Positions 651 to 26,469 of a stretch of DNA of 27,398 nucleotides are shown in pieces. The translations under genes were made by a program, and so were the position numbers. How positions within the stretch are numbered: the stretch's first letter is position 1; the number at the start of each line of letters is the position of its first letter. The notes beneath the pieces are model-generated. The model searched no databases. It was given only the letters and a program-made list of their open reading frames with translations, and was not told the DNA's origin. This DNA comes from Spirochaetales bacterium (GTDB taxonomy: Bacteria; Spirochaetota; Spirochaetia; SZUA-6; DRHE01): NCBI GenBank assembly GCA_016930895.1, contig JAFGFV010000197.1, forward strand, positions 1-27,398. The letters run 5' to 3'.

Positions 651-3341
651 CTACGCGGTCGTGTACTTGTCCCCCCTGCGCCGCCCGTTGATCACGGCCT
701 GGGCCGCGGCCAGCCGGGCGATGGGCACCCGGTAGGGTGAGCAGGAGACGTAGTTCATCCCCACGTTGTAGCAGAACTCTATGGAGCTGGGATCTCCTCC
801 ATGCTCCCCGCAGATCCCGACCTTCAGGTCCGGCCGAGTCGAGCGGCCGCGCTCAGTGCCCAACTGGACCAGCTGTCCGACCCCTTCCTGGTCGAGAGCC
901 TGGAAGGGGTCCTTTTCCAGGATCCCCTTCTCCACGTACTCCGGCAGGAACACCCCGGCGTCGTCCCGGGAGTAGCCGAAGGTCATTTGGGTGAGGTCGT
1001 TGGTCCCGAAGCTGAAGAACTCGGCCACCTTGGCCACCCGGTCGGCGGTCAGAGCCGCACGGGGAATCTCGATCATGGTCCCGATCTTGTAGTCCAGCTT
1101 GACCTTCTTCCGGGCCATAACCTCCTTCACGATCCGGTCGGCGCTCTCGTGGAGGATCCGCAGCTCCTCGTCCACCCCGACCAGGGGAATCATGATTTCG
1201 GGAAGCACCTTGACCCCCGCCTTGGCCACCTCGCAGGCCGCCTCCGCGATGCCCTGCACCTGCATGTCGTAGATCTCCGGATAGGTCACCCCGAGACGGC
1301 AGCCCCGGTGTCCGAGCATGGGGTTGAGCTCGTGGAGTGAATCGATCTTGGCCTGGAGCTTCTTGACCGTGATCCCGATCTTGTCCGCCAGGGCCTTGGT
1401 GTCCGCCGGGGTCTTGGGCACGAACTCGTGCAGCGGCGGATCCAGCAGGCGGATGGTAACCGGCAGCCCGTCCATGGCCTTGAAGATTCCCTTGAAGTCC
1501 CCCTTCTGCAGGGGCAGGAGCTTCTTGAGGGCCTTCTTGCGGGCTTCCAGGTCCTCCGCGACGATCATCTCCTGGAAGATCTCCAGGCGCCCTTCGTCGA
1601 AGAACATGTGCTCGGTCCGGGTCAGGCCGATGCCCTCCGCGCCGAAGCCTCGGGCGACCTTGGCGTCCCGGGGCAGGTCCGCGTTGGTCCGCACCCGGAA
1701 GCCCTTCTCCTTGAGGCCGGGACGTACGGCCGCCAAGCGCACCTCGTCGGCCCAGCTCAAGAACACGGCCAGCTCACCGGATACCTTGGCCTGCACCAGC
1801 TTGATCTCCCCCTCGAACACGTCGCCCGTGGAGCCGTCAATGGTCAACCAGTCCCCTTCCTTGTACTTCTTGCCGTCGATGGTGGCCACGTTCCCGGAAA
1901 TCGCCACCGCCTTGCAGCCGGCCACGCACGGAGTCCCCATGCCCCGCGCCACCACCGCGGCGTGCGATGTCATACCGCCGGTGGAAGTCAGGATGCCCTG
2001 GGAGACGTGCATGCCCCCGATATCATCCGGGGAGGTTTCCCGGCGCACCAGGAGGACCTTGTGGCCCTTCTTGACCCACTCCTCCGCCTCGTCGGCGGTG
2101 AACACGATCTGGCCGGTGGCTGCACCGGGGGAGGCGTTCAGGCCCTTGGCCAGGGACTTGAGGCTCTTGCGCATCTTGGGATCGATCATGGGGTGCAGGA
2201 GCTGATCGAGCTGGTCCGGAGAAACCCGCTGCACCGCCTCCTCCTTGGTGATCAGCTTCTCCTTGACCATGTCGACCGCGATCTCGACCGCCGCCGGTCC
2301 CGTGCGCTTGCCCGTGCGGGTCTGCAGCAGATAGAGCTTGCCCTGCTGGATCGTGAACTCCATGTCCTGCATGTCCTTGTAGTGCTTCTCCAGGCGCAGG
2401 CGCACGTCGTTCAGCTCCTTGTAGATCTTGGGGTTCTTCTTGGCCAGGGACTTGAGGCTCAAAGGGGTGCGTATGCCGGCCACCACGTCCTCGCCCTGGG
2501 CGTTCATCAGGTATTCCCCGTAGAACTCGTTCTCCCCGGTGGAGGGGTCGCGGGTAAAACACACGCCCGTGCCGGAGTCATCGCCCAGGTTGCCGAACAC
2601 CATGGTCTGAACGTTGACGGCGGTGCCGAGCAGCCCCTTGATCTCGTTGATCTGGCGGTAGCGAATGGCCCGCGGATTGTTCCAGGAACCGAACACGGCG
2701 TCGATCGCGGCCCACAGCTGCTTGGCCGGTTGCTGGGGGAACGCTTCCTTGGTGTGCTTCTTGTAGATCTCCTTGTAGCGCTTGACCACCTCCTGGAGGT
2801 CTGCGGCGTCCAGATCCAGGTCCTCTTCCACCCCCTTCTTCTTCTTGACGGCGTCCAGGGCGTGCTCGAAGGCGTCGTGCTCAATGCCCCGCACCACGCT
2901 TCCGAACATCTGGATGAAGCGCCGGTACGCATCCCAGGCAAAACGCTCGTTGCCCGACAGTCTGGCCAGACCCTCCACCGCAACGTCATTGAGGCCGAGG
3001 TTCAGGACCGTGTCCATCATCCCGGGCATGGACAGGGCCGCGCCCGAGCGCACGGAAACCAGGAGCGGGTCCTTCGGGTCTCCGAGCTTCTTGCCCATGA
3101 GCTTCTCGAGCCTCTGCAAGTGCTCTTGGACTTCCTTGTCCAGTCCCGCCGGATACTTGCGGTTGTTCTTATAGAACAGGTCACACACCTCGGCCGAGAT
3201 CGTGAACCCGGGGGGCACCGGTATGCCGAGGTTGGTCATCTCGGCGAGGTTTGCCCCCTTGCCGCCCAACAGGCTCTTCATGCCGGCGCCGCCTTCTGCT
3301 TTGCCGGAGCCGAAGAAGTACACGAACTTCTGTTTTGCCAT
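651..3341 (-). CDS. ppdK: Pyruvate, phosphate dikinase
   Basis: The enzyme interconverts pyruvate, ATP and phosphate with phosphoenolpyruvate, AMP and pyrophosphate in the cytoplasm. At 896 aa it is a normal full-length member. The N-terminal ATP-grasp part begins FVYFFGSGKAEG with LLGGKGANLAEM near residue 26. The swivelling phosphohistidine domain has GGMTSHAAVVARGMG with the catalytic His near residue 460. The C-terminal PEP/pyruvate barrel has LTRTEHMF, GHRGCRLG and CGEHGGDP, with the catalytic Cys near residue 844. The ATG at 3341 has AAGGTGG eight bases upstream and a good promoter before it. In anaerobes this enzyme often works glycolytically with pyrophosphate, and that role here is inference. 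The gene stands alone between the sigma-factor gene and the prolyl isomerase gene. No terminator with a T-run is seen after its TAG stop. Confidence 0.97.
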   Translation of the reverse strand: MAKQKFVYFFGSGKAEGGAGMKSLLGGKGANLAEMTNLGIPVPPGFTISAEVCDLFYKNNRKYPAGLDKEVQEHLQRLEKLMGKKLGDPKDPLLVSVRSGAALSMPGMMDTVLNLGLNDVAVEGLARLSGNERFAWDAYRRFIQMFGSVVRGIEHDAFEHALDAVKKKKGVEEDLDLDAADLQEVVKRYKEIYKKHTKEAFPQQPAKQLWAAIDAVFGSWNNPRAIRYRQINEIKGLLGTAVNVQTMVFGNLGDDSGTGVCFTRDPSTGENEFYGEYLMNAQGEDVVAGIRTPLSLKSLAKKNPKIYKELNDVRLRLEKHYKDMQDMEFTIQQGKLYLLQTRTGKRTGPAAVEIAVDMVKEKLITKEEAVQRVSPDQLDQLLHPMIDPKMRKSLKSLAKGLNASPGAATGQIVFTADEAEEWVKKGHKVLLVRRETSPDDIGGMHVSQGILTSTGGMTSHAAVVARGMGTPCVAGCKAVAISGNVATIDGKKYKEGDWLTIDGSTGDVFEGEIKLVQAKVSGELAVFLSWADEVRLAAVRPGLKEKGFRVRTNADLPRDAKVARGFGAEGIGLTRTEHMFFDEGRLEIFQEMIVAEDLEARKKALKKLLPLQKGDFKGIFKAMDGLPVTIRLLDPPLHEFVPKTPADTKALADKIGITVKKLQAKIDSLHELNPMLGHRGCRLGVTYPEIYDMQVQGIAEAACEVAKAGVKVLPEIMIPLVGVDEELRILHESADRIVKEVMARKKVKLDYKIGTMIEIPRAALTADRVAKVAEFFSFGTNDLTQMTFGYSRDDAGVFLPEYVEKGILEKDPFQALDQEGVGQLVQLGTERGRSTRPDLKVGICGEHGGDPSSIEFCYNVGMNYVSCSPYRVPIARLAAAQAVINGRRRGDKYTTA

Positions 3342-3382
3342 GCGATACCACCTTGTCCAGGATTTAGTGCAGATTTAACGTC

Positions 3383-3411
3383 AAAATAAATCAAATGGAA
3401 GGCAATGTCAA
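3383..3411 (-). promoter_or_regulatory. Sigma70-type promoter of ppdK
   Basis: Reading the minus strand, a perfect -35 TTGACA (3411-3406) is followed after 17 bases by TATTTT (3388-3383). Transcription would start near 3376, giving a leader of about 35 bases that carries AAGGTGG before the ATG at 3341. The region is A/T-rich compared with its surroundings. Confidence 0.65.
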
Positions 3412-3450
3412 CAAAACACGGACTGTCGCGGGGGGTCCCGGTGCTCAGAC

Positions 3451-3476
3451 AAAAAAACCCCGACGCGCGCCGGGGT
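3451..3476 (-). terminator. Rho-independent terminator of the sigma-factor gene
   Basis: On the minus strand ACCCCG..CGGGGT forms a GC-rich stem (with one G-T pair inside) that is followed directly by seven T. It lies about 105 bases after the TGA at 3581 and is the last of three hairpins in this 3' region. Confidence 0.8.
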
Positions 3477-3487
3477 ATATCTCACAT

Positions 3488-3502
3488 CGGCGACTCTCGC
3501 CG
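3488..3502 (-). other. Short perfect hairpin in the sigma-factor 3' region
   Basis: CGGCGA and TCGCCG form a perfect 6-bp stem with a 3-base loop, between the 11-bp hairpin and the terminator. It has no T-run of its own. Confidence 0.45.
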
Positions 3503-3532
3503 CCTCACCTCCGCAAACCTGTCCGCGAGCCC

Positions 3533-3558
3533 CCCCTGGAACCTCTCGGTTCCAGGGG
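3533..3558 (-). other. 11-bp perfect stem capped by a GNRA-type tetraloop, sigma-factor 3' region
   Basis: On the minus strand CCCCTGGAACC pairs perfectly with GGTTCCAGGGG around the loop GAGA, which matches the GNRA class. It starts 22 bases after the stop codon at 3581. No T-run follows, so it is more likely an RNA-stability or processing element than a terminator. Confidence 0.6.
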
Positions 3559-3580
3559 TGCCGGGGCTGGTCGGGTCGGG

Positions 3581-4480
3581 TCAGGCGATGTAGGACCGAA
3601 GCGTGTGGCTCCGGGAAGGATGCTGGAGGCGCTTCAACGCCTTCTTCTCGATCTGTCGGATTCTCTCCTTGGTCAGCTTGTAGCGGTTCCCGATCTCCTT
3701 GAGCGACATGGGCCGCTTGCCGTTGAGGCCGAAGCGGTACTGGATGATGTCCGACTCCTTCTGGCTGAGGGTGCTCAACACGTCGTTGATCTCTTCCTTG
3801 AGGGAACGATCGATCACCGAATCCGCCGGCGAGCTGTTGCGCTTGTCCACGACAAAGTCGCTCAGCAGCGAGGAGTCCTTCTCGTCGTAGATAGGAGTGT
3901 CCAGGGAGACCAGGTCCCGGGAAATGTTCAACAGCTCCGCGACGTGGTCCGGGTCCATGTCCAGCTGCCTGGCGACCTGCTCGATCTCCGACTCCCCGCG
4001 GGAACCTATCTGGAGCTCCTTGCGGACCTTCTCGATCTGCACGAGCTCGTTGGCCCTGTTCAGAGGCAGGCGAATCATGCGGGACTTTTCGCAGATGGCC
4101 TTGAGGATGGCCTGACGAATCCACCACACGGCGTAGGAGATGAAGTGATACCCCTTCTCCACGTCGAAGCGCTCGATGGCGTTCATGAGCCCGATGTTCC
4201 CTTCGCTGATCAAATCCGCCAGGGGCAGGCCCTGGTTCTGGTACTTCTTGGCCACGTTCACCACGAAGCGCAGGTTGGCCTGGACCAGCCGGTTCTTGGC
4301 TTCCACATCCCCGGTGGCCGCCCGGCGCGCGAGGTTCTCCTCCTGCTCCCGGGTCAAGAGCGGGATCCGGTTGATCTCCTTGAGATAGATGGAGAGAATA
4401 TTCTCATCGCTGGACGCCGCGCGTGCAACGTCCCGCTGTGCGGTTCGCTGAGTGTTCATGGTTTTGGTCGCTACAGACAT
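3581..4480 (-). CDS. Group-2 (RpoS/RpoD-like) RNA polymerase sigma factor
   Basis: A 299-aa sigma70-family protein without the long N-terminal region 1.1 of a housekeeping RpoD. Region 1.2 begins near ILSIYLKEINRIPLLTREQEE. Region 2 has NLRFVVNVAKKYQNQGLPLADLI and the -10 recognition helix with WWIRQAI. Region 3 follows LPLNRANELV, and region 4 ends with YKLTKERIRQIEKKALKRL, the -35 reader. I chose the ATG at 4480 because AGGAGGG sits just upstream. A longer frame to 4579 would run through the promoter and has no such site. A near-perfect sigma54 promoter lies directly upstream, and three hairpins including a terminator lie downstream. The size and promoter resemble Borrelia RpoS, but the sequence alone does not separate RpoS from other group-2 factors. 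Confidence 0.92.
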   Translation of the reverse strand: MSVATKTMNTQRTAQRDVARAASSDENILSIYLKEINRIPLLTREQEENLARRAATGDVEAKNRLVQANLRFVVNVAKKYQNQGLPLADLISEGNIGLMNAIERFDVEKGYHFISYAVWWIRQAILKAICEKSRMIRLPLNRANELVQIEKVRKELQIGSRGESEIEQVARQLDMDPDHVAELLNISRDLVSLDTPIYDEKDSSLLSDFVVDKRNSSPADSVIDRSLKEEINDVLSTLSQKESDIIQYRFGLNGKRPMSLKEIGNRYKLTKERIRQIEKKALKRLQHPSRSHTLRSYIA

Positions 4481-4508
4481 TTTGCCCTCCTGCGTTTTGT
4501 TATAGGGT

Positions 4509-4525
4509 AGCAATATGCGTGCCAA
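4509..4525 (-). promoter_or_regulatory. Sigma54 (-24/-12) promoter of the sigma-factor gene
   Basis: The minus strand reads TTGGCACGCATATTGCT. Against the published consensus YTGGCACGrNNNTTGCW only the degenerate r position differs, and the GG and GC pairs have the required spacing. Start of transcription would be near 4498, an A, leaving an 18-base leader that contains AGGAGGG. A weaker sigma70 reading overlaps it (TTGGCA, 15 bases, TATAAC), but its spacing is poor. Confidence 0.75.
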
Positions 4526-4582
4526 AACGTAGCCGAGGGTATCCTGTAACTCTTTGAATGAAAACGAATAAGAAGCCACTCA

Positions 4583-4608
4583 GCCCCGCGCGCAAATGCG
4601 ACGGGGCC
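4583..4608 (-). other. GC-rich imperfect hairpin between the SEC-C gene and the sigma-factor gene
   Basis: On the minus strand GCCCCG and CGGGGC pair around an inner CGC/GCG stem with loop ATTT and one bulge. It lies about 50 bases after the SEC-C stop at 4656 and upstream of the sigma-factor promoter. No T-run follows directly, so calling it a terminator would be weak. Confidence 0.3.
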
Positions 4609-4655
4609 TAATGAGTCAAAATGTCACGGTTGCCCGTGGTCAGGGCGATTGTGGG

Positions 4656-5324
4656 TCAAAACAGACCAACCAGCAGCTCGTCCTCCCCCGGGGTGCGGCC
4701 GCAGCAGACCAGATAGGGCAGCCCGCTCCCGCAGAAGCACTTGTCTCCCGGCCCCACCCGCTTCCCGGTGGCAAAGTCCACACGCAGCACGGGATCCTCC
4801 AGATTTCCCTGAAAGAACAGGGGAAAGTCGATGCAGGTGTTCTTGAAGATCGCGCTCTTCTCCGCCGGGCTCTTGCCGTCCAGCACGCCGGAGGACTTGA
4901 GCTTGTCCCAGTAGCTGCGAATGATGTCCGCCAGCATGGTGCGTTCCGCCTCGCTCGACAGGGTCTTGCGGTTGAACCCCCGCAAGTAGCGCATCAGCTG
5001 CATCGAGTGGAACGCCTGCCAATCGTCCTGATCCGGGCAGGACTGCTTGGCCATCCCGTAGTCGTTGGCAAACCTGCCCAGCAGCTCGTACGTGTGTCGC
5101 TGGCGTTTGGCGCGATGCGCTGCGATCCAGCTGCGAACGGCGGAGTTCGACAACCCGAGACGCTTGAGCGCGATTCCCAAGTAGTAGAGAAGCTTGGCCA
5201 GGTCTTCGGAGCGGGTAACAGGGCAGCTGTGGAGCCCCTTGGCGAAGTGCAGCACCGCCCCCCCTGGGTCGTGCTTGGAAAGCTGCCGGATCCCACGATG
5301 AATGTCAGTCTGCCAGCGCTCCAC
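4656..5324 (-). CDS. SEC-C motif protein of unknown function
   Basis: A 222-aa cytoplasmic protein with no signal peptide or membrane segment. The C-terminus carries a textbook SEC-C zinc motif: GPGDKCFCGSG near residues 192-201 and CCG at 207-209, giving C196-x-C198-x8-C207-C208. In SecA and other proteins this motif binds zinc and mediates contacts with SecB, ribosomes or other partners. The first 90 residues look like a helical repeat (AVLHFAKGLHSC, DLAKLLYYLGIALKRLGLSN), similar to a TPR pair. The middle part is helical and not recognised. The start is GTG at 5324; no clear ribosome-binding site precedes it, and no better in-frame start exists before residue 91. It is transcribed away from groES and towards the sigma-factor gene, so a stress-related role is possible but is only inferred from position. 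Confidence 0.8.
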   Translation of the reverse strand: MERWQTDIHRGIRQLSKHDPGGAVLHFAKGLHSCPVTRSEDLAKLLYYLGIALKRLGLSNSAVRSWIAAHRAKRQRHTYELLGRFANDYGMAKQSCPDQDDWQAFHSMQLMRYLRGFNRKTLSSEAERTMLADIIRSYWDKLKSSGVLDGKSPAEKSAIFKNTCIDFPLFFQGNLEDPVLRVDFATGKRVGPGDKCFCGSGLPYLVCCGRTPGEDELLVGLF

Positions 5325-14236: not shown

Positions 14237-15370
14237 CCCCGGCCGCGCCAGACGGACCAGCCCGTGCGAGCTCTCCAGTAATCCCGCGAGCTCCTGCGCC
14301 TGCTCTCGCATCTCCCGAAAAGACTGGCCCATCGAGCTGGAACTGCCCACGCTGTCCAGGCACAGGCCCATGGCCGCCTCGAGAGAGGTCCCAGCCGACT
14401 CGAGGCTCCCGGCGGCGGAGTCCGTCGCCTCTGCGACCCGCCCCATTTCTGCGCCGGCCTGCTCGATGCTTCTGCGCACCAGTTCGACTGAGCGTTCGGC
14501 TTCGCTGGTCCTCATCGATATCCGCTTTACCGCGTCCCGGCTCGACTGGACCAGCTCGGAGATCTCCCCGGCCGCCGCCGCGCTCTTCTCGGCTAGCTTC
14601 TGCACCTCGAGAGCGACCACGTTGAACCCCTTGCCGAACTCTCCGGCCCTCGCGGCTTCTATCGCCGCATTCAGCGCGAGCAGGTCCGTCTGGTCCGCCA
14701 AGTCCCGAATCAGCGAAGTGATCTCCTCGATCCTGCCGGTCTGCTCCTCGAGCTTCCCGACATCCTCGGCGCTGCGCCGAATCACCTCGCTCGCAACCTC
14801 GACCTCCGTGTTCCCCCCCGCTGCGGTTTCACGGCTGCCCGCCGACTGCTCGCGGGCCGCGCGGACCGAGGCGTCCACTGCTCTCACCGCCGCGGTGCAC
14901 TGCTCCAGGAGATCCACCTGCCTGGTCTCGGCCTCAGCGACCACCCCGCTCAGGCCTTCGAGCTCGATCGAGCTGCGCAGCACCCGGCTTGCATGGGTCT
15001 CCACCAGCCGGTAGATCTGCCGGGCCCGGCGCAGCTCTGCGAGCTGCGCCATGACGCCGTCCAGATCCCCACCGTCCGGCTGCGGAGCTTCGCGCTCTTC
15101 CTCCAGCTCTTCCTCCAACGGGACCTGGTCAGCCAGGCGGCAGTATTCGGCCACCCCTGCCACTGTCCGATTCAACCGCGGCAGCCAGACCAGGGTCACC
15201 AGCACAGCCATCACCAAGCCGGCCGCAAACAGCACCGCCATCGCCGCCACGGCCGCGGTCCGCGCCGCCTCGAAGGCGGCATAAGCCCCAGCTCCGGCCG
15301 CCAGAAGGACCAGTAGGAGCGCCAGCACGGCCGTCCCGGTTGTCACCCGAGAAATCAGGTTCGACTTCAT
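14201..15370 (-). CDS. Methyl-accepting chemotaxis-like signalling protein without a periplasmic sensor domain
   Basis: A 389-aa protein. Two hydrophobic segments (about 10-31 and 38-62) are joined by only about six residues, so there is no ligand-binding periplasmic domain. A cytoplasmic coiled coil follows with an acidic run ([18 protein letters not shown]). The MCP signalling tip is clear: [47 protein letters not shown]. No C-terminal CheR-tether pentapeptide is seen. The ATG at 15370 overlaps the TGA of the NtrC-type regulator gene (ATGA), so it is the last gene of the murG operon. No CheA or CheW lies nearby. It may sense membrane state or work with the adjacent kinase/regulator pair, but this is inferred from coupling only. 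A longer frame upstream lies inside the regulator gene and is rejected. Confidence 0.88.
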
Positions 15371-16710
15371 AACCCGTACTCCTGGAGCTTGCGATGCAGG
15401 GTCTTGCGCCCGATGCCCAGCACCTGCGCCGCTCGCGACTTGTTCCCATTCTCGGCGGCCAGGGTCGAGCGGATGACCTCCCTTTCGGCGTCCGCCAGAC
15501 TCATACCCGTGCTCAGTCGGATCACGTCGGCTTCGGAATCCGAACGGACGTGGGGAGGCAGGTCGTCGACGGTGATGATACTCGACTTGGACATGACCAC
15601 CGCGCTTTCGACGGCGTTGCGCAACTCCCGGACGTTGCCGGGCCACGGGTAGTTGTACAGGATCATCCGGGCCTTGGGCTCGATCGCTTCAATCTTCTTG
15701 TCGTTCTCCCGCGCGAACTCCTTCAGGAACGCCGCCAGCAGGAGCGGAATATCGTCCTTGCGCTCGCGCAGGGGGGGTATGTGGATGTTGACCACGTTGA
15801 GCCGATAGAACAGGTCCTCGCGGAACTCCCCCTCGTCGATCGCCTCCCGCAGGTCACGGTTGGTGGCCGCTATCACCCGCACGTCGACCTCGATGGTTTC
15901 TTCCCCGCCGACACGCTCGAACTGCTTGTCCTGCAGCACCCGCAGCAGCTTGATCTGAACGCTCGGGCTGACCTCCCCGATCTCGTCCAGGAAGATGGTG
16001 CCCATGTGGGCAAGCTCGAAGCGCCCGCGCTTGCGCGCCACCGCCCCGGTGAACGCCCCCCGCTCGTGCCCGAAGAGCTCGCTCTCCAGAAGGCTTTCGC
16101 TGAGGGCGGCGCAGTGCACTTTGATGAGAGGCTTGTCCTTGCGCGGCGAGTTGTAGTGAATCGCGTCGGCAATCATCTCCTTGCCGGCGCCGCTTTCCCC
16201 GGTGATCAGCACCGCCGCCTTGCTCGGCGACACCTGCTGCACCACCTCGAAGATCTTCTTCATCGGCTCGCTCTTGCCGATGATGTTCGAAAACTGGTGC
16301 CTCTTCTGCAGCTCCTCCTGCAGGATCCGGTATTCCCGCATGAGCTCCCGGTTGGACAGCGCCCGCTGGACCAGCAGGGAGAGGCGGTCCATGTTCACCG
16401 GCTTGGTCAGGTAGTCGTAGGCTCCCTCCTTCATGGCCTGCACCGCGTTCTCGATCGTCCCGTGGCCCGTGAGGATGATGACCGGGAGAGTGGGGTACTC
16501 GGCGGCCACGAGCCGTAACAGCTCATCGCCGGAGAGGTTGGGCATCTTGAGATCGGTGATGACCAGATCGATGTCCCCCCTGCCGAGCAGCTCCTCCGCC
16601 TGGCGTCCGTCGGCGGCCAGGAACACCTTGTACCCGTCCAGCTCGAGAACCTTGCCGAGCCCCTCACGGATGTTTCTCTCGTCGTCGACCACGAGGATGT
16701 TGTACTTCAT
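15367..16710 (-). CDS. NtrC-family sigma54-dependent response regulator
   Basis: A 447-aa protein with the complete three-domain plan. The receiver has ILVVDDE, the phospho-acceptor D53 in [10 protein letters not shown]83 and K104 (TKP). The AAA+ domain has Walker A GESGAGKE (172-179), the sigma54-contacting GAFTGA loop (219-224), Walker [10 protein letters not shown] and the arginine-finger region [11 protein letters not shown]. The Fis-type helix-turn-helix is at the C-terminus ([20 protein letters not shown]). The intact GAFTGA means it should open sigma54 promoters, so the genome should encode RpoN. Its start overlaps the histidine kinase stop as ATGA, so the two form a cognate pair. From memory the order matches Treponema atoC. 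A candidate sigma54 promoter lies in this window upstream of the sigma-factor gene (4509-4525), though targeting is unproven. Confidence 0.96.
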
Positions 16711-17873
16711 CGGCTCTCCTCCCGATATCCGATCAAGCGCTTCTCCTTCTGCGGAATTGGGAAGCTCAGGGTGAAGGAGGTACCTCCGTCCACCTTGGAA
16801 TCCACGGCGATGTCTCCCAGGTGCTCCTTCACGATCTTGTACACGATCGTCAGGCCCAGCCCCGATCCGAACTCCTTGGTGGTGAAGTACGGCTCGAAGA
16901 TCTTGTCCATGTTCTCGTCCGGGATGCCGATCCCGGTGTCGCTGATCTGCAGGCGCAGGTGGTTGCCTTTCACCGCGGTCCGGATCCCCAGGCTCCCGCC
17001 CTCGGGCATGGCGCTGATCGCGTTCTTGACGATGTTCAGGACCGCCTGCTTCATGTAGCGCTCATCCATGCGGATCTCCGGCGCCGGCTCCACCAGGTCG
17101 ATCTCTGTCTGGATCCCCGCCTGCTCCAGCTCCGGCCCGAGCAGCTCCAGAAGCTCCTGGATCAGACGGTTCAGGTCGGCGAACTCCAGCTCCGTGTTCA
17201 TGGGGCGCACGGTAAAGAGGAAGTCCATCACGATGCGGTTCAGGCGTTCCAGCTCCTCCTTGATGATCAGCAGGTTCTCCATCACCTTTGCGGTCTCGAT
17301 CTGCTGCTTCCCGCTCATCTCCTTTTTCATGAGCTCCAGATGGATCCCGATGGAGCCGAGGGGGTTCTTGATCTCGTGCGCCACTCCCGCGGTCAGGGTG
17401 GTCAGCGCGGCCAGGCTCTCGGCCCGCCTGAGGCGGGCGTCCCGTGCCTTGCGTTCGGTGATGTCCTCGATGTGGATCACGGTGCCCTGGATGCTGCCCC
17501 GCCGGACCAGGGGCATCATGCTGAGCGACAGGGTCCTGGTGTAGCCGCCGTCGAGCGTGAACTCCTTGTCCACGATCCGGTCCAGGTCGTGCAGGGTCTC
17601 CCGCAGGAAGGCAGCGATTTCCTGGTCCCCGATGGCCTCCCACAGCACCTTCTCCGTCAGCTCTTCGGCCGCGAACGGAAGCATTCGCTCGGCGGACTTG
17701 TTGACCAGCAGGATCCGGTCGCTGCGGTCCGTCACCACCACGCCGTCGGACATGGACTCCATGACCATGCCCAGCAGCTCGCTCTCGGCGGCCAGGTCCA
17801 CTACCAGCCCCCGCACCTGGGCGTGGTCCATCTTGTCGATCTTCTCGAGCGCTCTCTCCAGGAACTTTCTCAT
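16707..17873 (-). CDS. Soluble PAS-domain sensor histidine kinase (NtrB/AtoS-like)
   Basis: A 388-aa kinase with no transmembrane segment, so it senses an internal signal. The PAS domain spans about 35-140 (MSDGVVVTDRSDRILLVNKSAERML). The dimerisation/phospho-acceptor domain has His166 in GVAHEIKNPLGS. The ATP-binding domain shows the N box (LNIVKNAISAMPEGG), the G1 box (ISDTGIGIPDENMDKIFEPYFTTK) and the G2 box (GSGLGLTIVYKIVKEH). It should phosphorylate D53 of the NtrC-type regulator encoded next, and the two reading frames overlap as ATGA. Its own start overlaps the holB-like stop in the same way, tying the signalling pair to envelope and replication genes on one transcript. Confidence 0.95.
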   Translation of the reverse strand: MRKFLERALEKIDKMDHAQVRGLVVDLAAESELLGMVMESMSDGVVVTDRSDRILLVNKSAERMLPFAAEELTEKVLWEAIGDQEIAAFLRETLHDLDRIVDKEFTLDGGYTRTLSLSMMPLVRRGSIQGTVIHIEDITERKARDARLRRAESLAALTTLTAGVAHEIKNPLGSIGIHLELMKKEMSGKQQIETAKVMENLLIIKEELERLNRIVMDFLFTVRPMNTELEFADLNRLIQELLELLGPELEQAGIQTEIDLVEPAPEIRMDERYMKQAVLNIVKNAISAMPEGGSLGIRTAVKGNHLRLQISDTGIGIPDENMDKIFEPYFTTKEFGSGLGLTIVYKIVKEHLGDIAVDSKVDGGTSFTLSFPIPQKEKRLIGYREESR

Positions 17874-19159
17874 TCCAAACCCTTCAGGGTGTAGTACAGC
17901 GACTCCAGGGCGAGCGCCGGCGCCTGGTTGAAGCCCTCGAAGGCGGCGAGCTGGTCCCGAATGGCCCGGTTCCAGCGCTCCAGCCGAAACGGGCTCATCC
18001 CTCCCTGGCGAAGCAGCAGGTGCAGCTGCCGCAGGAGCTCCTCGAGGAATGACAAGACAAAGTTTCGATGATCCTTTCGGGAGCGTTCCGATCGGGAGGA
18101 AACCGCGGCGACCAGCTCGTCCAGGACTCCTCTACCCGCCCGGGCTTCCGCTTCCGTGTCGTACTCGGAACCGGAGTCCTCCCCCTCGGCCGCTCCGCCT
18201 AGCACGGCGCCCACGAAGCGCTGTGCCAGAGAACGCAGCTGCTGGGGATTGACCTCGTTCCAGTACAGAAAATACTCGCGCAGGCCCTGATAGTCTTCCC
18301 CTTGCTCGTGGAAGATCCGCTCGAGGACCTCCCGCTCGGCTTCCCGGCTGCGTTCCACGAACAGGTAGGGCCTCAGCCGAGAGCGCACCGTCGCAATCAA
18401 GGAATCCCGCCGCCTGGTGATCAGGATCAGGTGCACGTCTGCCGGCGGCTCCTCCAACAGCTTGAGCAGCGAGTTGCTGGAGGAGTCTTTCATCCGGTCT
18501 GCGTTCTCCAGGATCACGACCTTGCGGGCGGCCCCGCCTCCCGAGCTCGGAGCATTCAGCGCCGTCATGTGCAGCCATGCGGCGGCCCGGCGGATCTGAT
18601 TGATCGGGATGGTCTCCACGCTCAGGGCGGAGGCCAGCTTGCCGGTGAGCTCCTGCAGCTTGTCCAGCTGCGCCTCCAGCTTCTTGCCCGTCAGGCCGGC
18701 GCCGCCGTCGGCCACGGGGAGCACGCCGTCCAGGCGCTCCTCCACCTCCGCCAGCAGGGGCTGAAGGCTCCGCACCCGGCTCTCCTCCCCTTCCCACAGC
18801 TGCGGGTCGAAACGCCTGGTGAGCTTCCGCACCGCCCGTATGAACAGGTAACAGGAAGCGGGCTTGGGATTTCGCCGCAGGGTGTCGGCACAGGCGGCTA
18901 TCTCCAGCTCGAAATATCGCGACCCCATGAGCACCGTGTTGGGATGCACGAGCAGTCTCTGCTTGCGGCAGGAGGGGCACCCGCACGCCCACTGCGCATG
19001 TTCCTGGCAAGTCAGCACGCGGGCGATCTCGAGGGCCGCGGACAGCTTGCCGGAGAAGCGGGGACCGTACAGCAGCATCGACGCGGGCAACGTCCCGGCC
19101 TCGAGCTCGCCGGCGAGGGTCTGGACCACCGCGGGCTGCCCGATGATGTTCTCAAACAT
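17870..19159 (-). CDS. holB: DNA polymerase III delta-prime-like clamp-loader protein
   Basis: The product from ATG 19159 is 429 aa. It begins MFENIIGQPAVVQTLAGELEAGTLPASMLLYGP, the start of a DnaX/HolB AAA+ fold. A cysteine cluster (CQEHAQWACGCPSCRKQ) fits the zinc-binding insert of this family. The P-loop GPRFSGKLS has Leu instead of the Ser/Thr after the Lys, as expected of a delta-prime subunit that need not hydrolyse ATP. Further marks are NRIRRAAAW-like helix text, VVILENADRMKDSSSNSLLKLLEEPP and ILITRRRDSLIATVRSRL, the sensor-1 strand and SRC-like element (here SRL). The central insert (about 105-210) is longer than in E. coli. Start choice: the ATG at 19159 overlaps the cvpA stop by eight bases, and the longer frame would read through cvpA. 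Assignment to holB rather than a paralogue is probable. Confidence 0.82.
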   Translation of the reverse strand: MFENIIGQPAVVQTLAGELEAGTLPASMLLYGPRFSGKLSAALEIARVLTCQEHAQWACGCPSCRKQRLLVHPNTVLMGSRYFELEIAACADTLRRNPKPASCYLFIRAVRKLTRRFDPQLWEGEESRVRSLQPLLAEVEERLDGVLPVADGGAGLTGKKLEAQLDKLQELTGKLASALSVETIPINQIRRAAAWLHMTALNAPSSGGGAARKVVILENADRMKDSSSNSLLKLLEEPPADVHLILITRRRDSLIATVRSRLRPYLFVERSREAEREVLERIFHEQGEDYQGLREYFLYWNEVNPQQLRSLAQRFVGAVLGGAAEGEDSGSEYDTEAEARAGRGVLDELVAAVSSRSERSRKDHRNFVLSFLEELLRQLHLLLRQGGMSPFRLERWNRAIRDQLAAFEGFNQAPALALESLYYTLKGLE

Positions 19160-19646
19160 CGGCGGGCTTCGTCCCTGTCTGAAAGATCCGCTCCGGTGAG
19201 GGCAGAAGGGGGCACAGGAAGCGGGCAAACAGACTGTCGCCCAGGAGCGGCCCCGGGTCGAAGAAAGGCTGCCAGTTGAGCAGGAAAAGCACCACCGCCA
19301 CCAGGAGCAGCCCCTCCGCGATGCCGAGGAAGAAGCCGAGGGCGCTGTCCAGGCGGTCCAGGTTCAGCTTCTCGAAGACCGCCGCCAGCAGCCGCTCGAC
19401 CAGCTTGACGACGATGTAGATCACCAGGAACAGCACCAGGAAGGCGATGAGCGGGTTCCACATCGACTCCCCGAAGCTGCGGGCGATGATTCGGGCCACC
19501 GGACGGTGGAAACCCACGGCCCCGCTGATTCCCAGGACCAGCGCGGCGGCGGAGCCCGCCTCCGCCACGAAGCCCCGGAAGGCCCCCCGAACCGCGGCCA
19601 CCAGGATCAGGATCGCGAACACCACGTCGATGATCTCAAACCGCAT
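19152..19646 (-). CDS. cvpA: CvpA family membrane protein
   Basis: A 164-aa protein with four hydrophobic segments and the CvpA pattern: MRFEIIDVVFAILILVAAVRGAFRGFVAE at the start, a second helix after AGSAAALVLG, a third in LIAFLVLFLVIYIVVKLVERL, and LDSALGFFLGIAEGLLLVAVVLFLL. Known members are inner-membrane proteins linked to colicin V production and to envelope integrity. The exact activity is not established. I start it at the ATG at 19646, which overlaps murG by 11 bases and matches the family N-terminus. An upstream start would only add unrelated residues from the murG frame. The C-terminus overlaps the holB-like start. Confidence 0.9.
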   Translation of the reverse strand: MRFEIIDVVFAILILVAAVRGAFRGFVAEAGSAAALVLGISGAVGFHRPVARIIARSFGESMWNPLIAFLVLFLVIYIVVKLVERLLAAVFEKLNLDRLDSALGFFLGIAEGLLLVAVVLFLLNWQPFFDPGPLLGDSLFARFLCPLLPSPERIFQTGTKPADV

Positions 19647-20745
19647 CGGGTACACCCACTCTCCCGCTCCGCTGGGCAATCAGGGTGGCGATCACCTGGG
19701 CCGACCGGGGACGTCCGAGCTCCCGAGCCCGCTCGGCCATACCCCGCAAGGTGGTCGCGTCGGTCAGGAGCCGCACGACCGTGTCCACCAGCCGACGCGG
19801 GGTGGCTTCGGCCTCCTCCAGGACCACGGCGGCCCCCTGCTCCTCCAGGTACCGCGCGTTTTCGATCTGGTCCCCGCGGCTGGCGGCCCTGCCCAGCGGG
19901 ATCAGCATCGCCGGCTTGCCCAGGGCGGCCAGCTCCCACACGGTGTTGGCCCCGGAGCGGCTGATCACCAGCGCGGCGGCCGCCAGCACGTCGGGCAGCT
20001 CCTCCCGAAAGAAGGGCGCCGTGAAGTAGCCCGTCCGGCTGGAAGCCTCGTAATGCGCGCTGCCCATCTGGTGGACCACGAAGCAGTGCTCCGTGAGCTC
20101 CCCAACGCCATCCTCGACCAGCTGGTTGATGAACCTTGATCCGAGGCTGCCTCCGAGCACCAGGACCAGGGGCCGGTCGTCGCCGCAGCCGACGCGGCGC
20201 CTGCCTGCTTCCGGATCGCCGCGCAGCAGCGCGGCCCGGACCGGATTGCCCGTGTGGGTGACCCGGGAACGGAGCTCCCCACCGAAGTAGCGCGCGCTCT
20301 CGGGGAAGGACACCAGCACCGACTCCGCGAAGCGGGCGTTGATCCGCGTGGCCAGGCCCGGCTCCAGGTCGGACTCGTGGGTCACCACCGGAACCCTCAT
20401 GAGCCACGCGGCGATCACGGGAGGGACGCTCACGTACCCCCCCTTGGAGAACAGCAGCCGGGGTCTCTCGCGCAGCAGCACGATCAGGCTGGCGAGCACA
20501 CCCGCGCCGATCTTCAGCAAGTCGAAGAGATTCCGGACCGACAGGTATCGGCGGAGCTTGCCCGCCGGGACTCCGTAGTAGGGGATGCCCCGCTCCCGCA
20601 CCAGCTCCCGCTCCATTCCGCGGACCGAGCCGATCCAGACCACCCGACCGGTCCACAACGGGGCTTGCAGCTCCTCGACGACGGCCAGCGCAGGGAACAC
20701 GTGGCCTGCGGTCCCTCCGCCTGTGAAGACAATGCAGTCGCTCAT
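19636..20745 (-). CDS. murG: UDP-GlcNAc:lipid I N-acetylglucosaminyltransferase MurG
   Basis: MurG adds GlcNAc to lipid I to make lipid II at the cytoplasmic face of the membrane in peptidoglycan synthesis. The chain has the family's glycine-rich loop MSDCIVFTGGGTAGHVFPALAV at the start, KLRRYLS, FSKGGYVSVPPVIAAWLMRVPVVTHESD (family VTHEQN-like), THTGNPVR, LVLGGSLGSRFIN and the UDP-sugar site VISRSGANTVWELAALGKPAMLIPLGRAASRGDQIENARYL. Length is about 369 aa, normal. Another ATG at 20769 would add eight residues (MQDETSGR) with no ribosome-binding site, so I prefer 20745, though its AGG-rich site is very close to the ATG. First gene of a six-gene overlapping unit. The divergent neighbour starts only 58 bases away. 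Confidence 0.95.
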   Translation of the reverse strand: MSDCIVFTGGGTAGHVFPALAVVEELQAPLWTGRVVWIGSVRGMERELVRERGIPYYGVPAGKLRRYLSVRNLFDLLKIGAGVLASLIVLLRERPRLLFSKGGYVSVPPVIAAWLMRVPVVTHESDLEPGLATRINARFAESVLVSFPESARYFGGELRSRVTHTGNPVRAALLRGDPEAGRRRVGCGDDRPLVLVLGGSLGSRFINQLVEDGVGELTEHCFVVHQMGSAHYEASSRTGYFTAPFFREELPDVLAAAALVISRSGANTVWELAALGKPAMLIPLGRAASRGDQIENARYLEEQGAAVVLEEAEATPRRLVDTVVRLLTDATTLRGMAERARELGRPRSAQVIATLIAQRSGRVGVPDAV

Positions 20746-20803
20746 CCTGCCTGAGGTTTCGTCTTGCATCCGGTGTCGGCTTTCGGTACCTTAGCAGTGT
20801 ACC

Positions 20804-21607
20804 ATGATCCGAACCCGCGCTTCAACGACGACGGTTTTCGTTCTCGCTCTCCTGCTCGGCGGCGCCGCCGCCGGAGCCACCCCTTCCCTGGCTTCCCTCG
20901 TGCCCGCTCCGGTCCTGGAGCGCCTGCAGGCCGGCGAGGAGGTCACCCGCACGCTCTGGGGATCGAAGGGGCCCGAGTTGGTTCCCGCGATTCCCATGGC
21001 GACCGAGCTCATGCGCGAGCTGCAGTCCCTGGAGATCACGGTCGGGGTCGAGATGCTCCGCCTGTATGATGGAGCCTCGGAGAGCTGCGATACTGAGAGC
21101 TCCCGGCTCACCCTGTACAACATCCTGCGGTCGGTGAGCTCCATGGAGGGAATCCAGTACTACTCGGCGAGCCGCGACCGAATGAGGACCCTGTTCGCGG
21201 TTTCTCACGCGATCGACGGGCCGGACACCCAGGCACGGGTCCCGGACCCGCTGGTGAGCGAGGTGCCGGAGTACGGGACAGCATACATGCTGCAGGAGGA
21301 CCTTACCTTCGGCCGGAACCTGTACCGAGCCGAGTACCTGGCGAGGGAATACGGGTTCGTGCTGAAGATCTACAACCTCACAGAGATGCGATACTACTTC
21401 CTGCCGATGGTCAAACCCGAAGGCAGCCTGACGATCATGCTGGTCGTGCCTCACGGGCGGCAGATCCTGTTCTACAGCGCCATGGCGGCCCATACCCCGA
21501 GCCTGTTCGGAATCGAACGCTCGCGGGAGGAATCCTTCTACAATCGGCTGAATGCCCTGTACGGCTGGTTCGTCCGAGAGGTCTCTGGCGCGCTGGACGG
21601 GGACTAA
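20804..21607 (+). CDS. Exported protein of unknown function
   Basis: I do not recognise this 267-aa protein with certainty; it resembles uncharacterised spirochaetal secreted proteins. It begins with a clear signal peptide (basic MIRTRAS, hydrophobic TVFVLALLLGGAAAG, probable cleavage after AGA). The mature part is soluble, with no further membrane segment and few cysteines. Features are a helical N-terminal region (VPAPVLERLQAGEEVTRTLWG), then LTLYNILRSVSSMEGIQYYSASRDRMRTLF, YMLQEDLTFGRNLYRAEYLAREYGFVLKIYNLTEMRYYFLPMVKPEG, and a C-terminal LTIMLVVPHGRQILFYSAMAA. The aromatic-rich alternation suggests a beta-sheet core. Its stop (21605-21607) interlocks with the stop of the diguanylate cyclase gene on the other strand. 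No ribosome-binding site or promoter is obvious; only 58 bases separate it from murG. Confidence 0.8.
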   Translation: MIRTRASTTTVFVLALLLGGAAAGATPSLASLVPAPVLERLQAGEEVTRTLWGSKGPELVPAIPMATELMRELQSLEITVGVEMLRLYDGASESCDTESSRLTLYNILRSVSSMEGIQYYSASRDRMRTLFAVSHAIDGPDTQARVPDPLVSEVPEYGTAYMLQEDLTFGRNLYRAEYLAREYGFVLKIYNLTEMRYYFLPMVKPEGSLTIMLVVPHGRQILFYSAMAAHTPSLFGIERSREESFYNRLNALYGWFVREVSGALDGD

Positions 21608-22692
21608 CCCACGACGACCTGGTTGCGTCCTCGCTGCTTGGCCCGGTACATGGCGGTGTCCGCCCGGCTGATCCATTTGTCCGGGGTCTCGTTGGGGTTG
21701 TGCTGGGCGACCCCCACCGACACCGTGATCCGCAGCGGTCCGTTGCCGCAGCTGAAGGGGCTCTCCTCCATGTCCTTGCGGAAGCGCTCGGCGATGATGC
21801 GGGCAGTCTCCGAGCTGGTGTTGGGAAACAGGACAAAGAACTCCTCGCCGCCGTAGCGGCCGGCATAGTCGTACTTGCGCAGGCTCTTGGAAAGCTTGGC
21901 ACCGATCTCCCGGATGACCGTGTCACCGCACTGATGTCCGTAGTTGTCGTTGACCGGCTTGAAATGGTCGATATCGATCATGAGCCCTGTGAGGGGAAAC
22001 CCCATCCGCGTCGCCCGCTCGATTTCCACATCGATGCGGCGGAACAGGGTCCTCCGGTTCAGAAGACCCGAAAGGGGATCGTAGGAGGCCAGGCGCTCGA
22101 GTTCGTCGCAGTTGCGCTGCAGCTCTTCGTTGGCTAGACGGACCTTCTGGTACTCCCTTCGCAACTGCACGTTCTCCACGGCCAGCGAAGAGAGCCGTTC
22201 CTTGCTGTCTCCCGCTTCCGGCGCCTCTGCCTCGCCCCGCAGGTCCTCGATCAAGCGCACCTGGTTTCGCCACCGGATCACCGCCGCGCGAATCCGGGCG
22301 TGCAGCTCCAGCGCGGCGATCGGCTTGGAGATAAAATCGTCCGCGCCGTACTCCAGAAGCTCGTCGAGGTCGGACCGCTGGTCGAACCCGCTGATCATTA
22401 CGATTTGGATCGGCTTCATCTTGTGGGCCTTGCGGATCTGCCGGCACACCTCGTACCCGTCCATTCCGGGCATCAGCACGTCCAGCAGGACGATGTGGAC
22501 CTCCTCCTTCTGGAGGATCTCGAGGGCCTCCTCGCCGGAGCTCGCCTGGAGGAGGATGTACTTGTTCTCCTCCCGAAGGATGTCCGACATTAGCTCCAGA
22601 TGTTCCTGGTTGTCGTCTACTATGAGAACCTTTGCGATGACACACCCCCCGCGAACAGGACAGAGTGAGACCCGGCCCGAGACCGCGACCAT
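21604..22692 (-). CDS. Response regulator with GGDEF domain, probable diguanylate cyclase
   Basis: A 362-aa PleD/WspR-type protein that would make cyclic di-GMP when its receiver is phosphorylated. The receiver starts at KVLIVDDN (residue 21) with phospho-acceptor D71 in VLLDVLMPG and K123 in SKP. A coiled-coil linker (about 165-200) leads to the GGDEF domain. The domain has YDPLSGLLNRRTL, MIDIDHFKPVND, and the active GGEEF at 281-285. The inhibitory I-site RKYD (272-275) sits five residues before it, so product feedback is expected. The start is a problem: the only ordinary start codon is ATG 22692, which overlaps a good -10 box, while the receiver itself begins 20 residues later after a GGGGGG run at codons for VIAK. 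The true N-terminus may therefore be shorter. No partner kinase lies adjacent. Confidence 0.92.
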   Translation of the reverse strand: MVAVSGRVSLCPVRGGCVIAKVLIVDDNQEHLELMSDILREENKYILLQASSGEEALEILQKEEVHIVLLDVLMPGMDGYEVCRQIRKAHKMKPIQIVMISGFDQRSDLDELLEYGADDFISKPIAALELHARIRAAVIRWRNQVRLIEDLRGEAEAPEAGDSKERLSSLAVENVQLRREYQKVRLANEELQRNCDELERLASYDPLSGLLNRRTLFRRIDVEIERATRMGFPLTGLMIDIDHFKPVNDNYGHQCGDTVIREIGAKLSKSLRKYDYAGRYGGEEFFVLFPNTSSETARIIAERFRKDMEESPFSCGNGPLRITVSVGVAQHNPNETPDKWISRADTAMYRAKQRGRNQVVVG

Positions 22693-24854: not shown

Positions 24855-24885
24855 TTGAAAACGTCCCGAACTGGTGCCATATTAT
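24855..24885 (+). promoter_or_regulatory. Possible promoter of the barrel-like/caspase-like operon
   Basis: TTGAAA (24855-24860) is followed after 17 bases by CATATT or after 19 by TATTAT. Transcription would begin near 24890-24892, only one to three bases before the ATG at 24893, giving an almost leaderless mRNA even though AGGAG lies at 24887-24891. Confidence 0.4.
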
Positions 24886-24892
24886 CAGGAGA

Positions 24893-25516
24893 ATGCCCGG
24901 AAAGACTATAGCAATCGCGGCTGCCGTGTTGCTTATCCTCGCGGTCTTCGACGCACAATGGCTCGAGGCTGCCCCTCATTCCTTCTCCACGGGCTTCAGG
25001 GCCGGAGGGGGCATGGAGATCGCCGCGAGCGAGCCGCTGCCCGCCAAGGCCCAGGGCGCTGCAGGCGCAGGCCCGTTCGTCGAGTTCCAGTTCAACCGTT
25101 GGGTCGGATTGGGATTGGCCGTGCAGCCCCATGTAACGTTCCCCTCGGATCTCTCCGCTGGGTTCCAGTACCGGGGCCACTGGGGCACCGATCTGCGGCC
25201 ATACCTTTCGGTACGATGGCTGGAGCACCCGGCCTCCGGGGCGCTCGAGCTGGTGGCGGGGAACCTCCTTGGGCCGGTCATCCGTTACGACAGGTACTTC
25301 CTGACCTATCGGTACTTCTTCTACTTGGGGGTGTCGGTGGAGCCCTATCTGGAGCTGCATTTCCGGCAGGGAGCGGGGCGCTTGCGCCACAGCCTGGTCA
25401 CCTCGCTGCCCCTGGACCTGTACTTCCGCAGGGACGTGAGCTTCTCGGCAGGGACCGGCCTGGCGGTGGCCTGGAAGCTGTACGTTCCCAAGGCGGTGGA
25501 AGGGCAAGCTCCATGA
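24893..25516 (+). CDS. Exported, probably outer-membrane beta-barrel-like protein
   Basis: A 207-aa protein with a signal peptide (MPGKTIAIAAAVLLILAVFDAQWLEA, likely cut near EAAP). I do not recognise a named family. The mature part alternates polar and aromatic/aliphatic residues in the manner of outer-membrane strands: PFVEFQFNRWVGLGLAVQPHVTF, DLRPYLSVRWLE, FLTYRYFFYLGVSVEPYLELHF, SLPLDLYFRRD and FSAGTGLAVAWKLYVP. Glycine and tyrosine are frequent and there are no cysteines after the signal. This suggests a small eight-strand barrel, but a soluble beta fold is not excluded. The ATG at 24893 follows AGGAG at very short distance. The stop overlaps the start of the caspase-like gene as ATGA, so the two products are probably made in fixed ratio and may act together. 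Confidence 0.78.
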   Translation: MPGKTIAIAAAVLLILAVFDAQWLEAAPHSFSTGFRAGGGMEIAASEPLPAKAQGAAGAGPFVEFQFNRWVGLGLAVQPHVTFPSDLSAGFQYRGHWGTDLRPYLSVRWLEHPASGALELVAGNLLGPVIRYDRYFLTYRYFFYLGVSVEPYLELHFRQGAGRLRHSLVTSLPLDLYFRRDVSFSAGTGLAVAWKLYVPKAVEGQAP

Positions 25517-26469
25517 AGCGAGCCGTCCTTCTGCCTGCCGTTGGCGCGCTCCTCGGCCTCGCGGTCCTGTTTGGGGTCCTGCTCAGCAGCGCCTGCAGCC
25601 TGGACATGAGCTACGGCAAGTACGCCATCGTGTTCGGGGTCTCTGATTACCTCGAAATCAACGACCTGGACTGGACCGACGAAGACGCCAGCGACATGGC
25701 CACCCTGCTGACCGCCGACGGCTACTCAGTCTGGGGCGGAGGCGCCCAGCTCGACGGCGCCGCCACGGAAGGACAGCTCACCCTCGCCTTGAGCGAGATC
25801 GCCGCCCAGGCTACAGAGGATGACCTGTTCCTGTTCTACTTCTCCGGCCATGGCGGTCCCGTGTCCGCGAACGCGAGCGAAGGTGAGAGCGCCGCGGACT
25901 CAGACGAAGAGTTCATCGCCCTGCATGCAGCACCTTACCCGGCGGACCCCACCGCACCGGACATCCTGACCGACGACGAGCTGTCCGCGGCCCTGAGCGT
26001 GTTGCCCTGCGTCAAGAAGATCGTGATCATCGACGCCTGCAATTCCGGCGGAGTGATCGGCGACTCCGCGGACGTGGACGGGGTACCCGCCGACTACACG
26101 GGGACGATCTATCTATCCCTGGGCAGCCTCGATGAGGCCCTCTCCGCCTACTTTGGCCCGAGCTCGGACAGCGACATCACCCCGGGAGAGGCGATCGTGC
26201 TGGCCGCGGCCGGGGAGCTGGAGTCCTCGTATGAGGACCTAGCCGACGGCAGCCTGGGCTTCGAGCACGGGGTGTTCACCTACTTCCTGCTGCAGGCACC
26301 GTACTCCGGCGATGCCAACCGGGACGGGTACGTCACGGTCACGGAAGCCTACGACTACACCCGCGAGAAGATCGACGAGCAGTGGAACTCCGAAGCGTAC
26401 TTCGTCAACCGCTTCGCGCCCCACGTCTCCGGCGGGCCCGTCGACTACGTGCTGTTCACGGCAGAGTAG
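25513..26469 (+). CDS. Caspase-like (peptidase C14) exported lipoprotein with an EF-hand-type loop
   Basis: A 318-aa protein. The hydrophobic N-terminus (4-27) ends in SSAC, so C28 may be lipidated, though the lipobox is weak. A caspase p20-like domain follows: YAIVFGVSDYLEINDLDWTDEDASDMATLL, then the catalytic His113 in FLFYFSGHGG and Cys176 in IVIIDACNSGG, the two residues of the clan CD dyad. Between them lies a strongly acidic insert (about 116-133), and the whole mature chain is acidic. At 267-278 DANRDGYVTVTE matches the 12-residue EF-hand calcium loop at all liganding positions. Many metacaspases need calcium, so calcium control is plausible but inferred. Caspase-like proteases usually cut after Arg, Lys or Asp. 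The coupled upstream gene encodes a barrel-like exported protein, a candidate partner or substrate. Stop TAG at 26467; no clear terminator before uvrB. Confidence 0.85.
   Translation: MKRAVLLPAVGALLGLAVLFGVLLSSACSLDMSYGKYAIVFGVSDYLEINDLDWTDEDASDMATLLTADGYSVWGGGAQLDGAATEGQLTLALSEIAAQATEDDLFLFYFSGHGGPVSANASEGESAADSDEEFIALHAAPYPADPTAPDILTDDELSAALSVLPCVKKIVIIDACNSGGVIGDSADVDGVPADYTGTIYLSLGSLDEALSAYFGPSSDSDITPGEAIVLAAAGELESSYEDLADGSLGFEHGVFTYFLLQAPYSGDANRDGYVTVTEAYDYTREKIDEQWNSEAYFVNRFAPHVSGGPVDYVLFTAE

Follow-up and report, generated by a model that had tools for sequence, protein, structure and literature searches.

Cascades in which σ54 governs the gene of another sigma factor are best known from Borrelia. 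NtrC activates glnA from paired palindromic enhancers, and an enhancer of the NtrC type is expected to keep near-fixed spacing within the pair while its distance to the promoter is free. In Borrelia, hk2 lies immediately upstream of rrp2, no Rrp2 binding was found within 238 bp upstream of rpoS, and activation is reported to be enhancer-independent and Hk2 dispensable (excerpts of PMC1976401). Rrp2 is the sole activator of its type in B. burgdorferi (excerpt of PMC11109971), and some Borrelia species possess the activator with no σ54 found (excerpt of PMC3162934). For Treponema denticola, the excerpt of PMC12070737 reports that Hpk2 senses oxygen and describes Rrp2 as unstudied. A σ54-controlled chaperone cluster has been described as enriched in Planctomycetota and Bacteroidota (PMC12316311), and the excerpted text of that paper contains no statement on Spirochaetia for this cluster.

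The window, by which we mean the whole 27,398-nucleotide stretch of Spirochaetales DNA analysed here, shares with the Borrelia Hk2-Rrp2-RpoN-RpoS pathway an orthologous regulator and a kinase near holB- and murG-like genes, as well as a σ54 box before a σ70-family gene. However, its target sigma factor belongs to another family, and Borrelia-like loci lack the enhancer pair described below (0 of 9) and have regulators with the recognition helix LHNK for LHRK (8 of 8 read). NtrC-type systems resemble the window family in their paired palindromes, near-fixed spacing and variable promoter distance, but in the window family the site sequence is different, the spacing is 40 bp, and a sigma factor and chaperone genes are the likely targets. 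We take genome G072 to be T. pallidum-like and its sigma relative to be of the TP1012 type. Like the window gene, this sigma gene has a σ54 box (ATGGCATGATATTTGCT, 19.9 bits); in contrast, it has no enhancer pair, its regulator carries the helix LYLK and it sits on a very long branch of unsure place. In the excerpt of PMC5015957, TP1012 is a proteome-table entry only. The T. denticola Hpk2-Rrp2 pair (TDE1970/TDE1969) is, by description, similar to the pair in the window, consisting of a PAS kinase and a predicted σ54 enhancer-binding regulator, and the excerpt of PMC12070737 gives no target or site for it. Comparative evidence, set out below, provides good support for a predicted sigma-factor cascade in the window. 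The enhancer pair and its likely chaperone targets in relatives lie outside the coordinates first noted. Among the matches listed in a search of open-access titles and abstract starts, with subscription papers outside its scope, neither this enhancer nor a σ54 promoter before a sigma gene of the window type was reported. The features of the window are collected in Table 1.

Table 1. Features of the window that bear on the predicted cascade.
Feature	Position	Strand	Basis or remark
σ54 -24/-12 promoter TTGGCACGCATATTGCT	4509..4525	-	Matrix score and recurrence in relatives
sigS (name coined here), group-2-like σ70-family factor, 299 aa, regions 1.2, 2, 3 and 4	3581..4480	-	Domain and profile scans
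Shine-Dalgarno AGGAGG	4486..4491	-	Read from the letters
Terminator-like hairpin with T run, after sigS and before ppdK	3457..3476	-	Terminator scan
Proximal enhancer palindrome (predicted) CGTGACATTTTGACTCA, 10/12 core positions	4612..4628	-	Motif search and template scan
Distal enhancer palindrome (predicted) TGGTCTGTTTTGACCCA, 8/12 core positions, 40 bp from proximal, overlaps stop codon of upstream gene	4652..4668	-	
Protein ending in SecC-like cysteine motif (by eye), just upstream of sigS	4656..5324	-	Start codon not settled
Pyruvate phosphate dikinase (ppdK), downstream neighbor	651..3341	-	Profile match; found in at least 60/80 loci
NtrC-type response regulator, predicted Rrp2 orthologue; receiver, AAA+ with GAFTGA, Fis-type HTH	15367..16710	-	Domain scan, gene order, identity, tree
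PAS histidine kinase, Hk2 orthologue by position	16707..17873	-	
DNA polymerase III delta'-like (holB) gene adjoining kinase, conserved neighbor	17870..19228	-	Start codon not settled
murG-like glycosyltransferase, conserved neighbor	19636..20769	-	

The sigma gene starts at the ATG at 4480. For each of the RpoS, RpoD and RpoH models among the NCBIfam matches listed, its product stays under the curated cut-off (274.7 bits against 378.7 for the proteobacterial RpoS model TIGR02394), and regions 1.2, 2, 3 and 4 are present; on both grounds we call it group-2-like. The matches listed in a PDB search were all sigma factors, among them, by name, SigA, RpoD, RpoS, HrdB, SigB and RpoH. The terminator-like hairpin that follows suggests that sigS is probably a single-gene unit. 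The upstream gene for the SecC-motif protein, whose 3′ end holds part of the distal palindrome, has a related copy in at least 47 of 80 relative loci, and its product had no match in Pfam or NCBIfam. Searching the window for Rfam families and tRNA genes gave no hits.

The initial annotation had proposed a σ54 promoter before the sigma gene, and this was borne out. Scored with a matrix built from the sites of 75 relatives, the box reaches 24.1 bits, versus 5.8 and 4.6 bits for the runners-up on the plus and minus strands of the window. Since the boxes of these very relatives served to train the matrix, the fair claim is the one about background: in the 80 relative loci, with the regions upstream of the sigma genes excluded, 2,281,067 positions contained no site of at least 16 bits and 15 of at least 12 bits. 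The GG and GC dinucleotides of the box are 10 nt apart in the context of the σ54 consensus used here, YTGGCACG-N4-TTGCW. Counting loose matches to this pattern (up to two mismatches) gave 2 versus 3.5 expected, which is uninformative alone; conservation decides on the box. Transcription beginning 12 nt beyond the -12 C would start at about 4498, and the 18-base leader proposed earlier is thus correct by arithmetic, with the AGGAGG between this start and the ATG. Comparison with relatives confirms that the promoter is real; transcription itself is predicted.

This comparison drew on the best 80 of 297 confirmed relative loci, which are 67-80% identical. Almost all of them carry the title of a spirochaete MAG, and the set includes Alkalispirochaeta alkalica DSM 8900 and a Gracilinema caldarium bin. 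The nearest relatives of the window are uncultured Spirochaetota MAGs with no habitat in their titles; a non-host-associated lifestyle of its lineage is plausible. The strict box pattern was present in 76 of the 80 loci. Two of the misses, L019 and L059, are effects of start choice (their boxes score 23.6 and 19.8 bits), in L068 the sequence offers 35 nt ahead of the match, and the box of L033 is less strong, at 14.8 bits. The set was extended to 180 loci by adding the window and 99 more sigma loci, chosen by position in phylum genomes (a hundredth region, L096, had no sigma gene). A box of at least 12 bits precedes the sigma gene in 161 of these. The GG/GC pair, whose loss in close relatives had been named as a refutation, is kept in most relatives. 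The 19 misses are L068 (truncated), L105, L112, L113, L114 (an RpoD), L123, L126, L146, L147, L156, L164, L177, L178, L180, L183, L184, L186, L188 and L189; among them, L177, L178 and L186 are extra copies in genomes that also have a boxed copy.

A second refutation named at that stage was a genome with no rpoN. When this check was run on relatives, rpoN was present in 16 of the 16 genomes first searched; it was also found in 75 of the 80 phylum genomes chosen (missing in G070, G173, G219, G299 and G354). In G070, which has the sigma gene, the regulator and the enhancer pair, the rpoN search gave no match and the box scores 11.6 bits; in G203 rpoN is present and the box has decayed. Strict co-loss of rpoN and promoter was considered and is not upheld in Borrelia-like genomes: G091 and G270 carry an rpoN stretch with many stops and an intact -24/-12 box before rpoS. 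Several of the exception assemblies may be incomplete.

Upstream of the box, conservation at fixed positions is next to nothing, since the enhancer is not at a constant distance; a palindrome emerged once motifs were sought at any position. In 79 loci, this unsupervised search returned the palindrome with a log-likelihood of 503, versus 58-62 in four shuffled sets, and the refined 17-bp palindrome, TGNGTCA-N3-TGACNCA, occurs pairwise. With a cut-off of at least 18 of 24 core positions in total, a pair 39-42 bp apart (start to start) was found in 128 of 178 loci, at exactly 40 bp in 111; this count excludes L021 and L068, which have at most 150 nt of upstream sequence. None was found in ten shuffled sets, in which two-base blocks were permuted as a crude control. 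Other distances between 12 and 120 bp peaked at 15 loci, at 80 bp, which is probably a third copy of the palindrome. In most loci 100-150 bp separate the proximal site from the box, with extremes of about 50 and 330 bp. A pair whose internal spacing hardly changes while its distance to the box does is what an enhancer would show. In the window itself the palindromes are weak and their total of 18 is at the cut-off; even so, this is the sole place in the window with a pair of at least 18, and there were 0 in 20 shuffled windows. The palindrome pair, which the initial annotation had not noted, is likely the enhancer of the sigS promoter, as predicted from these letters and their recurrence.

The regulator encoded in the window has the intact GAFTGA loop ascribed to it earlier, at residue 218, together with a receiver, an AAA+ domain with Walker motifs and a Fis-type HTH, all as in NtrC-type activators. 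In tblastn searches of the 80 relative loci with proteins of the window, the regulator was found in 25, the kinase in 20, holB in 16, murG in 8 and dinG in 55; these are lower bounds, since many loci are short. In G001, the genome of L001, some 11 kb separate the regulator gene from sigS and both are on the same strand, an arrangement shared with the window. Nine genomes inferred to be Borrelia-like encode the regulator at 54-56% identity, with RpoS 7-8 kb away; the B. burgdorferi primers compared with them gave no exact match. In one of them, G091, the order is flgI-flgJ-rpoS-...-tsaD-...-murG-...-holB-HK-RR (names by eye except for rpoS, RR and flgJ, the last assigned by Pfam), and the kinase, holB-like and murG-like genes accompany the regulator of the window in the same way. 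A regulator tree, computed without G340, gave 86/84 for a 26-row core containing the window and Borrelia-like Rrp2, and 85/98 for a wider set into which one paralogue (G024) fell weakly; most paralogues stood apart. By gene order and identity, and moderately by the tree, we assign the predicted window regulator as an Rrp2 orthologue. A response regulator with a GGDEF domain is encoded close to this cluster, at 21604-22692 on the minus strand.

The recognition helix of the regulator was then compared with the sites before the sigma gene wherever both could be read, which gave 113 genomes or loci, rows that are related by descent. A GR..R helix occurs in 86 of the 113, and 78 of these 86 have a C-type pair of at least 18. 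The C-type template beats the A-type (TGNGTAA) in 84 of the GR..R rows; the latter also reaches 18 in 32 of them because the templates overlap. Six regulators have NRK for GRK. Four of these score higher with the A-type than with the C-type template (23 vs 19 in G043, 18 vs 16 in G031, 17 vs 0 in G017 and 18 vs 15 in G082), and in the other two, G076 and G054, a pair at 39-42 bp is absent and, by eye, TGTGTAA-like sites occur at wider spacing. The tree includes four of the NRK regulators and groups them in a single clade, suggesting that the shift of helix and site was probably a single event. In G255, which has K in the helix, the A-type scores 19 and the C-type 17. No pair was found with the eight Borrelia-like LHNK regulators or with the LYLK regulator of G072, and where the regulator has no HTH, in G088 and G094 (L287 and L286), the sigma gene has neither box nor pair. 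Across these predicted proteins and sites, changes in the recognition helix accompany change or loss of the palindrome. The link between regulator and sigS had been put forward earlier as inference; with the conserved enhancer pair, the shared neighborhood and this covariation, the regulator is the likely activator of sigS.

With the exact box pattern TTGGCAYG-N4-TTGCW, five genomes were searched for further targets. There were 24 sites in four of the five and none with the reversed control. An enhancer pair accompanies 5 of the 24, before sigS (2), hsp20 (2) and dnaK (1); the 19 boxes with no pair include those of nifH, an ammonium transporter and a glutamate synthase-like gene, and two belong to genes of the second sigma kind discussed below. 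A search for the pair alone (40 bp, up to 3 mismatches) matched in 13 of 25 genomes, with none for the reversed control, and beyond sigS it hit three places, each before an Hsp20 gene with a good box. Among 30 hsp20 loci, a box of at least 9.5 bits was found in 28 (exceptions L355 and L356) and a pair of at least 18 in 15, a joint choice of box and pair that carries a favorable bias; the frame after the box of L328 is not Hsp20-looking. In G001 alone, dnaK (L307 / L244) has a σ54 box and an enhancer pair 41 bp apart. These results indicate that, in the genomes searched, the predicted pair marks sigS and chaperone genes and not σ54 genes generally. The chaperone evidence comes from relatives only, as the scanned frames of the window included no chaperone gene.

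Based on these observations, we predict a two-step stress switch in the window, a reading that we regard as very probable. The PAS kinase would phosphorylate the Rrp2-type regulator, which would bind the two palindromes as paired dimers, form an AAA+ ring, loop onto σ54 polymerase at the -24/-12 box and open the promoter; the source genome would be expected to encode rpoN. The result would be a sigS mRNA with a short leader, and SigS would then redirect polymerase to a second tier of genes, its putative regulon. In relatives, small heat-shock genes, and dnaK in one genome, are probably direct targets of the regulator as well. Such targets point to protein damage or redox stress as the most likely trigger.

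Part of this scheme would also hold if the promoter were σ54-dependent and the palindromes an enhancer, with another NtrC-type regulator bound there and the Rrp2-type pair serving something else. Some genomes do encode a number of NtrC-type regulators (G001, for instance, has 4 matches at E 1e-110 or better), and the neighborhood, with the regulator within the flank in 25 of 80 loci, is in itself only suggestive. However, the palindrome changes or disappears along with the recognition helix of the Rrp2-type regulator, and of 40 genomes that carry sigS, 38 (all but G039 and G089) have a match to this regulator at E 1e-125 or better, versus 8 of 23 chosen as having no sigS-grade match (G018, G061, G166, G176, G299, G320, G354 and G372), so we consider a different activator unlikely. 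It is far harder to reconcile the data with a σ70-type promoter driving sigS, either at the TATAAC near 4498 or further upstream, and a merely decorative GG/GC pair. The TATAAC is present in the letters, but a scan of 3300-4720 for σ70-type promoters called one site, at 3411-3383, and none at TATAAC, and it is the -24/-12 letters that recur before the gene in relatives. We regard this possibility as very improbable.

The window might also be thought to come from a relative that has the very Rrp2-RpoN-RpoS pathway of Borrelia, down to its sigma factor. The logic is the same, the activator is orthologous, a regulator cluster lies near the sigma gene in both, and the pathway is a published one (excerpts of PMC11109971 and PMC1976401). 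The sigma factors, however, tell a different story. A second sigma family has a relative at E 1e-70 or better in 36 of 296 genomes, and its loci L360-L389 have a σ54 box of at least 9.5 bits in 30 of 30 and an enhancer pair of at least 18 in 0 of the 30 read (L226, L242 and L306 are other loci of this family). In the sigma tree, three Borrelia-like RpoS rows fall within this second family (100/99) and their joining to the window family is rejected (p-AU 0.0053), a grouping first seen in an earlier tree and involving a long Borrelia branch and a bootstrap that is not fully settled. An orthologous relationship between the window sigma factor and Borrelia RpoS is disfavored by this tree, and sigS follows the SecC-motif gene and not flgJ, unlike rpoS of the Borrelia type. 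We therefore see hardly any room for the Borrelia pathway as such. The initial annotation had invoked the Borrelia logic, in which Rrp2 and RpoN drive rpoS; the shared logic and the orthologous activator stand, whereas the target sigma factor belongs to a family other than that of Borrelia RpoS. A general link of the second family to flgJ was also considered. The second sigma gene of G001 follows flgJ, and flgJ is upstream in only 8 of the 30 loci plus the Borrelia-like L095, which rules out such a link. A general palindrome scan of Borrelia-like upstream regions found weak pairs in 4 of 9 only, not common to all.

With activation of sigS by the Rrp2-type regulator through σ54 as the preferred reading, a conserved enhancer pair for an Rrp2 orthologue in many spirochaetes, with chaperones among the likely targets, suggests ancestral wiring. 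We can speculate on a two-branch σ54 network in the ancestor, in which Rrp2 and the paired enhancer served sigS, small heat-shock proteins and sometimes dnaK, while the second sigma family was σ54-driven with no enhancer. Borrelia would have kept Rrp2 and the second sigma factor (RpoS) and lost sigS and the enhancer; the Rrp2 helix would have drifted, and Rrp2 would now serve the remaining sigma factor with no DNA site. For us, the arguments for and against this history are evenly balanced. If true, the virulence switch of Lyme disease would be a rewired relic of a proteostasis circuit, and the enhancer-independence of Borrelia would be explained. The enhancer pair offers a ready binding assay. 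It also supplies an explanation, open to experimental test, of how small heat-shock proteins are turned on in spirochaetes.

Two 1.2-Mb genomes, G340 and G332, have a strong σ54 box before the sigma gene (L110 and L111) with no enhancer pair and no Rrp2-grade regulator, and another activator may act there. The window also encodes a caspase-domain (Peptidase_C14) protein, at 24874-26469 on the plus strand.
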